A DNA stretch of 7,932 bases from Myxococcales bacterium (lineage in GTDB: Bacteria > Myxococcota > Myxococcia > Myxococcales > Myxococcaceae), in the NCBI GenBank assembly GCA_003153055.1, contig PMBV01000192.1, positions 32,048 through 39,979 of the forward strand, given 5' to 3'. Of the stretch, positions 2,939-6,793 are shown piece by piece. How positions within the stretch are numbered: the stretch's first letter is position 1; each line of letters opens with the position of its first letter. The notes beneath the pieces were generated by a model. It ran no database searches. It saw nothing but the letters and a program-made list of their open reading frames with translations, and was not told the DNA's origin. Position numbers and translations under genes: made by a program.

Positions 2939-3943
2939 GTGCTCTACCTGCACGCCATCGGACACTTTCATCCTGAAAACATCCTCACCAACGCTTTCCT
3001 CGAGTCGCTTGGAATTGAGACCAACGAGTCGTGGATACTGGAGCGGGTAGGCATCCGCACGCGCCACACGGTGTTGCCGCTCGACTACATCGCGGCGACG
3101 AAGAATCGTGATCCGCGGATGGCCATCGAGGTGGCGACGATGTCGAACGCCCAGACGGGCGCCCGAGCGGGACGAATGGCCCTCGAGCGGGCCGGTCTCG
3201 AGCCGCGAGACGTGGGTATGGTGTTGTCGGGGAGCTGCTCGCCCGACGAGTGCATTCCGGCCGAAGCGAACCGGGTCGCTGAAGTGATGGGTATCGACGC
3301 GCCGTCGCTCGACATCGCGTCGGCCTGCTCGAGCTTCGCGAGCCAGCTCTACTTCCTCGAGGCCATGCGGCCAGAGAAGCTGCCAGACTTCATCATGCTG
3401 GTGAACCCGGAGAACTCGACGCGAGTGGTGGACTACTCGGATCGCTCGACGTGCGTCCTCTGGGGCGACTGCTCGACGGCGGCCATCGTCTCGCCTCGGG
3501 TCCCGGGACCGTGGTGCGTCACCGAGACCTACCTCGGGGGCGATCCGTCGGGGGCCGAGAAGGTGAAGGTGCCTCGCTTCGGTCACTTCAGCCAGCATGG
3601 CGCCGAGGTCCAGAGGTTCGGGATCAAGCGGGGCATCGAGGTCTTCCAGGCGCTGAGGAACCGCTGGCTCGAGGGCGCCCCCGGGCGACACCGCGGCGAG
3701 CTCTCGTTCATCGGCCACCAGGCGAACCTTCGAATGCTCGAGGCGGTGACTCGGCGGTGCGACATCGCCCCCGACCGTCACCTCTACAACATCGATCGCC
3801 GGGGCAACGTGGGGGCGGCCGGAGCGCCCTCGGTCTTCTCGGAGCACTGGGGTGAGCCCGAGCTGGGCCATGCCGTCGCCCTGTGCGTGGTCGGCGCCGG
3901 CCTCACCTGGGCTGGCGCGCTGTTCGAGCGAACCGCCAAGTAA
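2939..3943 (+). CDS. 3-oxoacyl-ACP synthase III (FabH/KAS III)-like condensing enzyme
   Basis: A thiolase-fold condensing enzyme expected to join an acyl-CoA or acyl-thioester starter to a malonyl-type extender, or to act on another activated acyl group. The 334 residues match KAS III length (about 320-350). All three catalytic residues are present with FabH spacing: C130 in DIASACSSF, H260 in IGHQANLRML, and N290 in RRGNVGAAG. The HQAN motif distinguishes it from KAS I/II. Downstream, VGAGLTWAGALFER is the usual C-terminal glycine-rich strand. The GTG at 2939 follows GGGGG at 2928-2932. No acyl carrier protein, FabD, FabG or FabF gene is adjacent, so this is probably not the housekeeping FabH. 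A role in a specialised lipid or secondary metabolite is inference. The long palindrome upstream may control its expression. It converges on the annexin-like gene with 34 bases between the stop codons. Confidence 0.88.
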   Translation: MLYLHAIGHFHPENILTNAFLESLGIETNESWILERVGIRTRHTVLPLDYIAATKNRDPRMAIEVATMSNAQTGARAGRMALERAGLEPRDVGMVLSGSCSPDECIPAEANRVAEVMGIDAPSLDIASACSSFASQLYFLEAMRPEKLPDFIMLVNPENSTRVVDYSDRSTCVLWGDCSTAAIVSPRVPGPWCVTETYLGGDPSGAEKVKVPRFGHFSQHGAEVQRFGIKRGIEVFQALRNRWLEGAPGRHRGELSFIGHQANLRMLEAVTRRCDIAPDRHLYNIDRRGNVGAAGAPSVFSEHWGEPELGHAVALCVVGAGLTWAGALFERTAK

Positions 3944-3977: not shown

Positions 3978-4553
3978 TCAGAATGCCGTCGCGAAGTCGG
4001 CGCCCAGGAGCGCCTCGGCGGTCAACCGATCGCCCCGCAACAGCGCCAGCACCCCATCGCGCACCGGCCCCGTCACCGAGCGCCGCACCGCGAGCTCCAG
4101 CGGCCCGAAGTACGACGCGAAGCGCTGCCTCACGTCGTCGAGCAGCTTGGGAGGCACCGACTCGAGCGCCGAGAGCAGCGCCCGCGTGTTGCGGCCGAGC
4201 AAACCACTCGTCGCCTGCCGCAGCCGCTCGACCATTCGCTGCACCCGATCTCCGGCGAAGAGCGACTGGGCCCGACGGAGATCCGACGGGCTCAGGTCTC
4301 GCTTGAGCCGCTTGTCCAGCACCTCTCCAAAGCTCTTGAGGTACACCTGCGCCACCTCGGTGAGGTGCTCGGGCGAGCGCTCGGCCAAGACTCCAAAGAT
4401 GACCCGCTCGTCGGGACCCAGCGTGCTCAGCCCCCGATGAAGCGCGGTGTAGAGCGCACGCGCGTCGTCTTCCACACGGGGAGCTCGCGGGACCTCATTG
4501 ATGGCCGGTGCCGCCTCTGACGGCGCCCGGGAACCGTGGCTTCGATCCAGCAT
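3978..4553 (-). CDS. Bacterial annexin-like protein with two annexin repeats
   Basis: The 191-residue protein has an alanine- and proline-rich, probably disordered tail (1-27) followed by two annexin-like repeats. Repeat 1 (about 28-101) follows the annexin pattern: DARALYTALHRGL, then LGPDE in place of G-x-G-T-D-E, ILE-type helix text FGVLAERSPEHL, VYLKSFGEVLDKRLKRDLS. G46 and D86 are 40 residues apart, the spacing of the glycine loop and acidic ligand in type II calcium sites, although T44 and P47 replace the usual Gly and Thr, and helix A seems about four residues longer. Repeat 2 (about 104-175) keeps the helices (GLLGRNTRALLSAL, FASYFGPLELAVRR, VLALLRGD) but has S159 where the acid should be. 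Vertebrate annexins have four repeats, so this is half a core. Its likely role is calcium-dependent or independent membrane binding. No signal peptide. A near-perfect Shine-Dalgarno sequence fixes the ATG. It lies 99 bases downstream of the kinase-like gene. Confidence 0.75.
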   Translation of the reverse strand: MLDRSHGSRAPSEAAPAINEVPRAPRVEDDARALYTALHRGLSTLGPDERVIFGVLAERSPEHLTEVAQVYLKSFGEVLDKRLKRDLSPSDLRRAQSLFAGDRVQRMVERLRQATSGLLGRNTRALLSALESVPPKLLDDVRQRFASYFGPLELAVRRSVTGPVRDGVLALLRGDRLTAEALLGADFATAF

Positions 4554-4556
4554 GGT

Positions 4557-4564
4557 TCACCTCC
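4557..4564 (-). promoter_or_regulatory. Strong ribosome binding site of the annexin-like gene
   Basis: GGAGGTGA on the minus strand is fully complementary to the 16S rRNA tail, three bases (ACC) before the ATG at 4553 and six bases counted from GGAGG. It suggests efficient translation and settles the start codon. Confidence 0.85.
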
Positions 4565-4646: not shown

Positions 4647-4665
4647 GCACTGTTAACTGCAGTGC
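4647..4665 (-). repeat. Small hairpin at the end of the kinase-like gene
   Basis: GCACTG (4647-4652) and CAGTGC (4660-4665) are a perfect 6-base inverted repeat around a 7-base loop that holds the TAA stop of the kinase-like gene. On the minus strand it is followed by GAAAAGAGGG, not by T residues, so it is at best a weak or factor-assisted transcription end. A role as protein site is also possible. The rest of the 99-base gap (4554-4652) holds no clear promoter for the annexin-like gene. Confidence 0.35.
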
Positions 4666-5360
4666 TCAGGTGAGTGAGCACCCACCGGCTGCGGGGCCCT
4701 CGGATACGCGGTCAGGTTGGCGTCGTTCACCCAAGGCGGGTTCATCCCTCCGGTGCCGTGGAGCCACTCGGCGACGCGGTCGACGGCCGGGCCGATGTCA
4801 CCATCGGAGACATCAAGCTCGAGACAGGGGAGAATGGAGTCCTCGGCAGCGCGGCGGAAGTCGGCTTGCTCGGCGATGATGGCCTGAAGGTCGTCGTAGC
4901 GCCCCGCACTGCAGCCCGCCTTCCGGCGCTCCTCTCGGGCCGCCGCGAAGCTGTCCTCGCCGCGGGTGCACAAGATGATGCGAAACCCCAGAGGCCTCAG
5001 GCGCTCCTCGAGCCAGCCAAAGTCGTACCGGTGGGAACGCAGGCGCGCCTGGTGCACCAGCGTCGAGAGGTGGAACTGATCCACCAGCCACGGCGAGTAC
5101 GGCAAGAGCTCGAACAGGCGCGCCCAGGTGGAGAACGTCTCCATCGCCTGGCTCTCTTCCTCGGCGGCGAAGTTGATGAGCCCTCGACCCGTGGGGAGGC
5201 TCGTGAAGGCGGACCATTCGCCCGAGATGAGCGGTGAGGGGTAACGGTATTGCTGCGCTCCGACGATGCGGGGGTGACGATGCAGGGCGAGGCAGAGCTC
5301 CGTCTTGAGCGTCAGACGGGCCCCTTCAAGCAGGAGCTTGGGGTAGAGCTTCGCGGGCAT
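4653..5360 (-). CDS. P-loop nucleotide-kinase-like protein (thymidylate kinase-type fold) with altered Walker A
   Basis: A 235-residue protein that looks like a small nucleoside or nucleotide kinase. KLLLEGARLTLKTEL (residues 8-22) sits where thymidylate-kinase-like proteins have their P-loop strand, but the Walker A reads G-A-R-L-T-L-K-T, with leucine (L18) in place of the last glycine; K19 and T20 remain. WLVDQFHLSTLVHQ (90-103) resembles the D-R-x-x-x-S region of these kinases. FRIILCTRGEDSFAAAREER (125-144) resembles the strand plus arginine-rich lid that closes over ATP. The altered loop may mean weakened catalysis, a different substrate, or a binding-only role. The ATG at 5360 lacks a good ribosome binding site. 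It is divergent from the exported protein gene (131-base gap) and upstream of the annexin-like gene on the same strand. The P-loop fold is probable, the substrate unknown. Confidence 0.6.
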   Translation of the reverse strand: MPAKLYPKLLLEGARLTLKTELCLALHRHPRIVGAQQYRYPSPLISGEWSAFTSLPTGRGLINFAAEEESQAMETFSTWARLFELLPYSPWLVDQFHLSTLVHQARLRSHRYDFGWLEERLRPLGFRIILCTRGEDSFAAAREERRKAGCSAGRYDDLQAIIAEQADFRRAAEDSILPCLELDVSDGDIGPAVDRVAEWLHGTGGMNPPWVNDANLTAYPRAPQPVGAHSPEHCS

Positions 5361-5944: not shown

Positions 5945-6793
5945 CTAGAGGGCCGCTTCGACGCCCTCGGTGTCGAAGCCGACGACGAGCTTCCCGCGCA
6001 CGTCGGTGACCGGGACGCCCCCGGGGTTCACCCCCGCGGCGGCGGCCTTCTGGGCGAGCTCCTTCTCGGCTTCTGGATCTCGCTCGATGTCCTTCTCGAC
6101 GAAGTCGACGCCCTTCTTCTTGAGGAAGGCCTTCATCTTCTTGCAGTACCCGCACCACGCCGTGGTGTAGACGGTGACGCCGGAGCTGGCCGCCGACGTC
6201 GAGCGGGCGAAGCCGGCCGAGTCCTTCGACTTGGCCTTGGCCGCGGCCATCGCGACCCGGCGCTCGAGCGTCGCCACGCTCGTGAGGGCCTGTTTTCGTA
6301 GGGCGAGCTCCTTCGCCGCCTTGGCGCGCAAGACGGCCGCCACGTCGGCCTTCTCGCCCTTGAGCGGCTTCGCCTGATCGAGCTGCCTCAACACGAGGCT
6401 CCACTCACCCGCCTCGAAGGCGAGCTCGGCGCGGAGCAGCCGGGCGCTCGGGCTCTTCGGCTCGACCGTGAGCCATCGATCGGCATATTCCTCGGCCGTG
6501 GCGAACTGCTGCTCCTTGAACGAGCTCCGCGCAGCCACCTCGAGCGCCCCCGCCTGGCCGGGGTCGAGCTTCAGGGCCATCTGGGCGAACTGCAGCCCGA
6601 GGAGCTCGTCGTGCTTGGCGAGCGACTCCCCCGCGGCCTCGCCCAACAGCTGCGCCGCCTGAGGCTTCTCGGCCTCGCTCCACGACTTCCCTTCGAGCGC
6701 GAAGAGGACCTCGTCGAGCCGGCCCGCCTTGAGGTGAGCCCGCGCCTCCTCCAGTGGTGCCGCCGCCAGCGCCAACAGCAACAGACTCGTCAT
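5945..6793 (-). CDS. Predicted exported TPR protein with C-terminal glutaredoxin domain
   Basis: A 282-residue two-part protein. Residues 1-12 are a short hydrophobic leader (MTSLLLLALAAAP), probably a signal peptide without a basic N-terminal residue. About 14-180 form a chain of helical pairs of TPR type (EARAHLKAGRLDEVLFALEG; ALKLDPGQAGALEVAARSSF; FEAGEWSLVLRQLDQA). About 205-282 form a glutaredoxin domain: VTVYTTAWCGYC with the active-site pair C214 and C217, then KKMKAFLKKKGVDFVEKDIE, the cis-proline segment GGVPVTD, and a final VVGFD. It would act in thiol-disulfide exchange on a partner held by the TPRs. If truly exported, a glutathione-type redoxin outside the cytoplasm is unusual. 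The ATG at 6793 has GGGGAGGG three bases upstream; a GTG at 6811 overlaps the hemerythrin stop codon but has a weak site. It is the last gene of the FHA-hemerythrin-TPR/glutaredoxin unit. Confidence 0.85.
   Translation of the reverse strand: MTSLLLLALAAAPLEEARAHLKAGRLDEVLFALEGKSWSEAEKPQAAQLLGEAAGESLAKHDELLGLQFAQMALKLDPGQAGALEVAARSSFKEQQFATAEEYADRWLTVEPKSPSARLLRAELAFEAGEWSLVLRQLDQAKPLKGEKADVAAVLRAKAAKELALRKQALTSVATLERRVAMAAAKAKSKDSAGFARSTSAASSGVTVYTTAWCGYCKKMKAFLKKKGVDFVEKDIERDPEAEKELAQKAAAAGVNPGGVPVTDVRGKLVVGFDTEGVEAAL

Follow-up and report, generated by a model that had tools for sequence, protein, structure and literature searches.

A 7,932-nucleotide stretch of DNA from a Myxococcales bacterium (contig PMBV01000192.1; the whole stretch is referred to below as the window) encodes a stand-alone protein of 191 residues that is predicted to consist of two annexin repeats. 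Because the protein matches repeats 1 and 2 of five-repeat Myxococcaceae proteins that end in an ADP-ribosyltransferase (ART) domain, it is likelier, though not proven, to be a reduction of a toxin-type ART protein.

Results

Two annexin repeats in a bacterial protein

Pfam analysis of the 191-residue protein returned Annexin (PF00191) as the sole family, with a score of 41.9 bits (cut-off 25; E 1.1e-10, residues 37-88), a significant outcome of the PF00191 search that the earlier note on this DNA had proposed as a check. Comparison of the whole protein with PDB sequences gave annexin VI as the top match (E 2e-20); 78 distinct chains were found at E <= 1, and the best 60 of these 78 are annexins or annexin A2 fusions. 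A nine-sequence profile matched annexin VI at 1.2e-68. Repeat 2 is absent from the Pfam report, and when searched alone against the PDB its match was marginal, with annexin I (E 0.07) outranked by an unrelated chain (E 0.049). Both repeats were scored with an independent repeat profile of 56 rows from 13 other proteins, from which the stand-alone proteins and the large ART proteins described below (L083-L088) were excluded. Repeat 1 scored 51.0 bits, and repeat 2 scored 20.1 bits when excised (E 2.5e-8, for a single sequence) and 17.7 bits inside the whole protein. The top score among 2000 shuffles of repeat 2 was 5.4, and 918 of the 2000 gave any score. Since the repeats reach 51.0 and 20.1 bits and the best shuffle 5.4, both segments are to be regarded on profile evidence as annexin repeats, the second of them diverged. 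Chance resemblance to annexins is ruled out by the Pfam, PDB and shuffle-controlled profile scores.

These results bear out the earlier note's reading of two adjacent annexin-like segments (the PF00191 match for the first, the independent-profile score for the second) and, through the Pfam and PDB matches, of a bacterial annexin homologue with two repeats. The note had also described the protein as half of the four-repeat core: the two-repeat form stands, and the four-repeat parentage looks unlikely, as the matching segments are repeats 1 and 2 of five-repeat ART proteins. The window protein has repeat sequence in common with the eukaryotic annexins A5 and A6, which consist of four or eight repeats with canonical calcium sites and have been demonstrated to bind lipid in a calcium-dependent way; its own repeat count is two, and not the four-repeat core of eukaryotic annexins.

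The annexin gene and its surroundings

The features of the gene and its neighbours are given in Table 1. The annexin open reading frame begins with ATG, has a good ribosome-binding site and has a third-position GC content of 0.84, compared with 0.84-0.93 in eight other open reading frames of the window. For the product of the upstream 235-residue gene, no Pfam family and no PDB match with E < 0.2 were found, and a search of 12 related genomes, run without a positive control, gave no match; by eye, its N-terminus resembles a degenerate P-loop. A promoter scan found one promoter-like site 5′ of this gene (shuffle mean 0.0), and a terminator scan of the window found none. Elsewhere in the window, positions 5945-6793 (-) encode a TPR-like region and a glutaredoxin domain in one protein.

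Table 1 Features of the annexin gene and its immediate neighbours in the window
Feature	Position	Strand	Evidence
Stand-alone two-repeat annexin gene, 191 aa	3978..4553	(-)	ORF call, PF00191, PDB annexins, two relatives of near-equal length
Shine-Dalgarno-like GGAGGTGA, 3′ end 3 nt ahead of the annexin ATG	4557..4564	(-)	Sequence
N-terminal tail, residues 1-30, little conservation, without Trp, unlike the L083-L086 tails	4464..4553	(-)	
Annexin repeat 1, residues 31-94	4272..4463	(-)	Pfam and repeat profiles
AB loop STLGPDE, residues 43-49, modified GxGTDE calcium loop, G46 retained	4407..4427	(-)	
LKRDLSP, residues 83-89, D86 at the acidic ligand position	4287..4307	(-)	
Annexin repeat 2, residues 108-166, without acidic ligand (RRSVTG)	4056..4232	(-)	
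C-terminal tail, short; last column common to all three stand-alone copies	3981..4055	(-)	Alignment
Upstream 235-aa gene, no family found, co-directional, 99 bp from the annexin gene	4653..5360	(-)	
Beta-ketoacyl-ACP synthase III-like gene, convergent, 34 bp past the annexin stop	2939..3943	(+)	

An altered calcium site in repeat 1

The type II calcium site has the form GxGT[DN]E with an acidic residue about 40 positions further on. Repeat 1 of the window protein retains G46, D48, E49 and D86, with the first Gly replaced by Thr and the Thr by Pro; G46 and D86 lie 40 residues apart, a Gly-to-acidic spacing that agrees with that of annexin V. All three stand-alone proteins (described below) carry TLGPDE and [RK]DLSP in repeat 1, and all six of L083-L088 carry GxGT[ND]E and [ED]LSG there. 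The acidic ligand of repeat 2 is missing from all nine proteins (3/3 and 6/6, respectively). Judging from annexin structures, the replacement of Gly by Thr and of Thr by Pro would weaken the repeat 1 site. The features that had been picked out in the earlier note, namely a G46...D86 pair at 40-residue spacing and an LKRDLS motif, were confirmed in repeat 1. Its inference of one calcium site partly retained with the other lost is supported by the sequence, as repeat 2 has no acidic residue at the ligand position.

Three copies of the stand-alone form

A search of approximately 5.8 billion proteins, covering candidates of 0.55-1.75 times the query length that had words in common with it, found two close stand-alone copies besides the window protein (E <= 1e-3), P0002 (192 aa, 78% identical) and P0003 (189 aa, 76% identical). 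Two profile searches, with 7997 candidates scored in each, gave no further close stand-alone form, the other matches being annexins of other kinds and a 119-residue fragment, and a contig scan with the three stand-alone proteins gave 32 pattern matches and no relative. Between pairs of the three proteins the repeat core is identical at 135-138 of 162 residues with no gaps, and the N-terminal tail at 10-12 of 25-28 residues with 3-7 gap columns. Neither the window protein (P0001) nor P0002 has a Trp in this tail, and the Trp of P0003 sits at the repeat border. With the independent profile, repeat 2 scored 14.5 bits in P0002 and 11.9 bits in P0003. At the level of sequence, this comparison shows a stand-alone pair that has been kept as its own gene, in three copies.

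Other accounts of the gene were considered and rejected. That the gene is a prediction cut short by the end of a contig is refuted by the end column that the three copies share. For a phage or plasmid origin, searches of phages, plasmids and viral contigs gave no match to the gene, and the window DNA has no plasmid match; an anti-phage defence family was likewise set aside after PADLOC gave no match.

Large annexin proteins of related genomes

The stand-alone profile was compared with 12 genomes around matches to the window synthase (see below), seven of which gave a match. The top four, found in four of the 12 genomes (E 8.9e-46 to 1.4e-41), fall on repeats 1 and 2 of frames of 880-1116 residues; two weaker ones (1.2e-24 and 1.6e-23) also cover both repeats, the six frames together ranging from 880 to 1230 residues. 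Five more cover repeat 1 in frames of 546-598 residues, and another lies further along a 911-residue frame. The preference for the first two repeats is illustrated by the protein of genome G003, where the stand-alone profile gave approximately 150 bits for repeats 1 and 2 versus 23 and 10 bits for other repeats. Within the family of G003, 36 of 96 genomes gave a match, with frames of at least 546 residues throughout the matches listed (at most 34 candidates scored per genome), and across the phylum PF00191 matched 52 of 195 genomes, the smallest frame among the matches listed being 474 residues. As the matches listed reach E 6e-6, which is weaker than the 41.9 bits of the window protein, a gene like that of the window would be expected among them; no stand-alone annexin of its size was seen among the matches listed for the 12 relatives, the G003 family or the 195 phylum genomes.

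Eight of the large proteins were included in a first Pfam scan. Six of them, L083-L088, have Annexin and ADP-ribosyltransferase domains (PF03496 and PF01129), as does a further protein, L126, and the remaining two (L089 and L091) have phospholipase D-like domains. The repeat profile finds five annexin repeats in each of L083-L088, and the window protein is co-linear with repeats 1 and 2, with 42-45% identity to L083-L086 and 33-34% to L087-L088. Direct reading of the ART proteins shows a long Ala/Gly-rich stretch separating the annexins from the enzyme domain, and a Trp-bearing N-terminal tail is present in all four of L083-L086. The stop codon of each of L083-L088 (6/6) overlaps the start of a small downstream gene of 65-91 residues, a possible candidate for an immunity or helper gene; one of the two small proteins scanned has a sub-threshold DUF3040 match. 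The small proteins have the pattern R.[DE]RF.....G..DDG in common. A second similar gene of 366-371 residues (L087:876-1991 (-) and L088:7301-8401 (+)) stands next 3′ of the two ART2-type annexin genes, and for the one in L088 no Pfam family scores above cut-off.

Unlike L083-L088, the window protein has two repeats and is without the Ala/Gly-rich stretch, the ADP-ribosyltransferase domain and the overlapping partner gene, and its repeat 1 calcium loop is altered. Comparison of seven ART proteins with the window gave matches (E < 1e-3) nowhere except in the annexin open reading frame, which stops after repeat 2 and so does not encode five repeats with a C-terminal ADP-ribosyltransferase. No small gene overlaps it in the window, where 34 bp separate its stop from the end of the convergent synthase gene.

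Repeats were counted in 21 hand-picked long annexin proteins of Myxococcota, one protein per stretch from 21 of 31 stretches, using a 20-bit threshold and a profile trained in part on the proteins counted. Five repeats were found in 13 of the 21; single proteins had eight, three and two, and five proteins had one. L090, L092, L093, L110, L112, L114, L119, L122, L125 and L127 were outside the count, and for L116 and L120 the contig end coincides with the start. Several other architectures were seen. L089, L091, L117 and L123 each have a phospholipase D-like enzyme fused to one annexin repeat, L121:1676-3760 (+) encodes two annexin repeats and a LysM domain in a single protein, and L112 has an adenosine deaminase match barely above cut-off. 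In the 464-residue protein of L113:2525-3916 (-), three annexin repeats of very canonical form, scoring up to 91 bits against PF00191, are the only domains above cut-off. Pfam recognised no enzyme domain in L109, L111, L113, L115, L118, L120, L122, L124 or L128.

Placement of the stand-alone proteins in trees

A first tree of 33 segments, which took 10 of the 16 segments found in one search, grouped the three stand-alone proteins with the repeat 1-2 segments of L083-L086 (support 96/87) and these together with L087/L088 (100/99), with the repeat 4-5 segments separate (98/98). The same two forks (91/87 and 100/99) were obtained when a further tree was built from 19 segments; this second tree omits 14 rows of the first (L116, L118, L124, six repeat 4-5 rows, L094, L096, L097, L104 and L107). 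In both trees L126 has a long branch and lies outside the group of stand-alone proteins and L083-L088. The stand-alone group itself has a long stem (0.91 and 1.05), and long branches meet in both trees. The stand-alone form is thus placed by these trees beside or inside the L083-L086 ART group. In an AU test, a clade made up of L083-L088 to the exclusion of the stand-alone proteins was not rejected (p 0.12), so the pair may also have had a stand-alone ancestor; derivation from an ART protein is likelier but not proven.

The host lineage

The best relatives of the convergent synthase III-like protein are 73-85% identical (the 85% being over 227 residues of a cut gene) and come from 12 metagenome-assembled genomes whose labels are Myxococcus, Archangium, Myxococcaceae, Archangiaceae or Myxococcales. 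QueG of the window is 60-66% identical to proteins in 11 of these 12 genomes, the glutaredoxin-like protein is 46-58% identical in the nine of 12 with a nearly full-length match, and the window encodes a TIGR02265 protein (above cut-off), a family whose NCBI name contains Mxa. Because of the identities of these three proteins and the presence of TIGR02265, the host is, as judged by its neighbour genes, a lineage close to Myxococcaceae that has so far gone unsampled. Predation and development are common among myxobacteria, and the suggestion made from the letters alone that the host is a bacterium of that kind accords with this myxobacterium-like placement. At 54 loci around synthase relatives (tblastn, E 1e-3), the synthase was found and none of nine other window proteins, the annexin included.

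Discussion

Annexin domains are known from bacteria. The accessible part of Kodavali et al. 2014 (PMC3894181) reports them in myxobacteria among others, at one to five per protein and with some fusions to toxin domains, and names Gemmatimonas, Haliangium and Rhodococcus for two-domain forms; that part describes no pair on its own that corresponds to repeats 1 and 2 of an ART protein. Zhang et al. 2012, in the portion available (PMC3482391), treat annexin as an accessory to toxin delivery that is proposed to help breach target membranes, and state that in the toxins described there the single annexin invariably has an enzymatic toxin domain after it, whereas nothing follows the annexins of the window protein. 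The available text of PMC5030687 mentions a Myxococcus xanthus annexin-repeat protein resembling a contact-dependent inhibition protein, that of a 2024 review (PMC10882027) speaks of a class of prokaryotic annexins as a possible discovery that is held in abeyance, and the main text of PMC11297309 makes no mention of annexin. Among the literature matches listed, no title or abstract opening pointed to an ADP-ribosyltransferase protein as the source of a free-standing annexin with two repeats, in a coverage that most subscription journals lie outside. Annexins of bacteria, annexins with two repeats and fusions of annexin to toxin domains have therefore been published before, and the new part appears to be the toxin-less derivative.

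The reading that we tentatively favour is of a small soluble pair of annexin repeats, either descended from repeats 1 and 2 of the five-repeat annexin/ADP-ribosyltransferase effector or having its immediate ancestor in common with them, that would be intracellular, membrane-binding and perhaps dimeric. The homology and co-linearity of the pair with these repeats of the Myxococcaceae effector are established; the remainder of the effector would have been lost, or would never have been present, with the pair retained as its own gene, a direction that is supported but not proven. The pair most likely stays in the producing cell, since neither a signal peptide nor a long hydrophobic stretch is evident when its sequence is read by eye, and it most likely binds membranes peripherally. 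Annexin cores are pseudo-twofold symmetric, with repeats I-II related to III-IV, and on account of this symmetry the pair may form a homodimer that rebuilds the four-repeat disc. Calcium dependence of membrane binding would be weak or absent, because the repeat 1 loop is altered (T-L-G-P-D-E) and repeat 2 is without its acidic ligand. The explanation is weakened by the AU p of 0.12, by the long stem branch and by the weakness of repeat 2 when searched alone against the PDB; on the independent profile this repeat is weaker still in P0002 and P0003.

Possible, although unlikely, is a role in self-protection or control, where the free pair would bind the annexin part of the cell’s own effectors, or their membrane sites, and keep them inactive in the producer. 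Annexin repeats pack against one another, and a pair that matches effector repeats 1 and 2 and does without the effectors’ Trp-bearing tail, Ala/Gly-rich stretch and enzyme domain is consistent with such a role, but no effector gene adjoins the pair in the window, and all six of the L083-L088 effectors already have an overlapping small gene that is the more obvious immunity candidate. Rather more doubtful is a toxin membrane-delivery module set free as a producer-guarding decoy or immunity protein, which would pair with the annexin arrays of the cell’s own ART effectors or occupy their membrane sites.

There is a small chance that the pair is exported and aids the attachment of other effectors to target membranes, as might be expected from the breaching function proposed for toxin annexin domains in the available part of Zhang et al. 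(PMC3482391); against this, no signal peptide is evident by eye, and the Trp-bearing tail of L083-L086, for which an export role is itself only putative, is missing from the stand-alone pair. A truncated effector gene heading for loss, to which the altered calcium loop and the long stem branch could point, is improbable given three separate copies that are open, with the same end column and a gap-free core, and given the good ribosome-binding site and third-position GC. Least probable of all is a remnant of an ancestral two-repeat annexin that served as the building block of longer arrays, for although the form is two-repeat and the AU test permits the long forms as one clade, its distribution is very narrow and it groups with myxobacterial ART proteins, not apart from other long forms.

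A protein of two repeats is imaginable as a step towards the four-repeat core, though the pair described here looks secondarily reduced, and the sample suggests that five repeats, instead of four, are common in long myxobacterial annexin proteins (13/21). The annexin pair occurs in related bacteria in two settings, N-terminal in enzyme proteins and alone, and a comparison of the two could show what the repeats contribute free of the enzyme.
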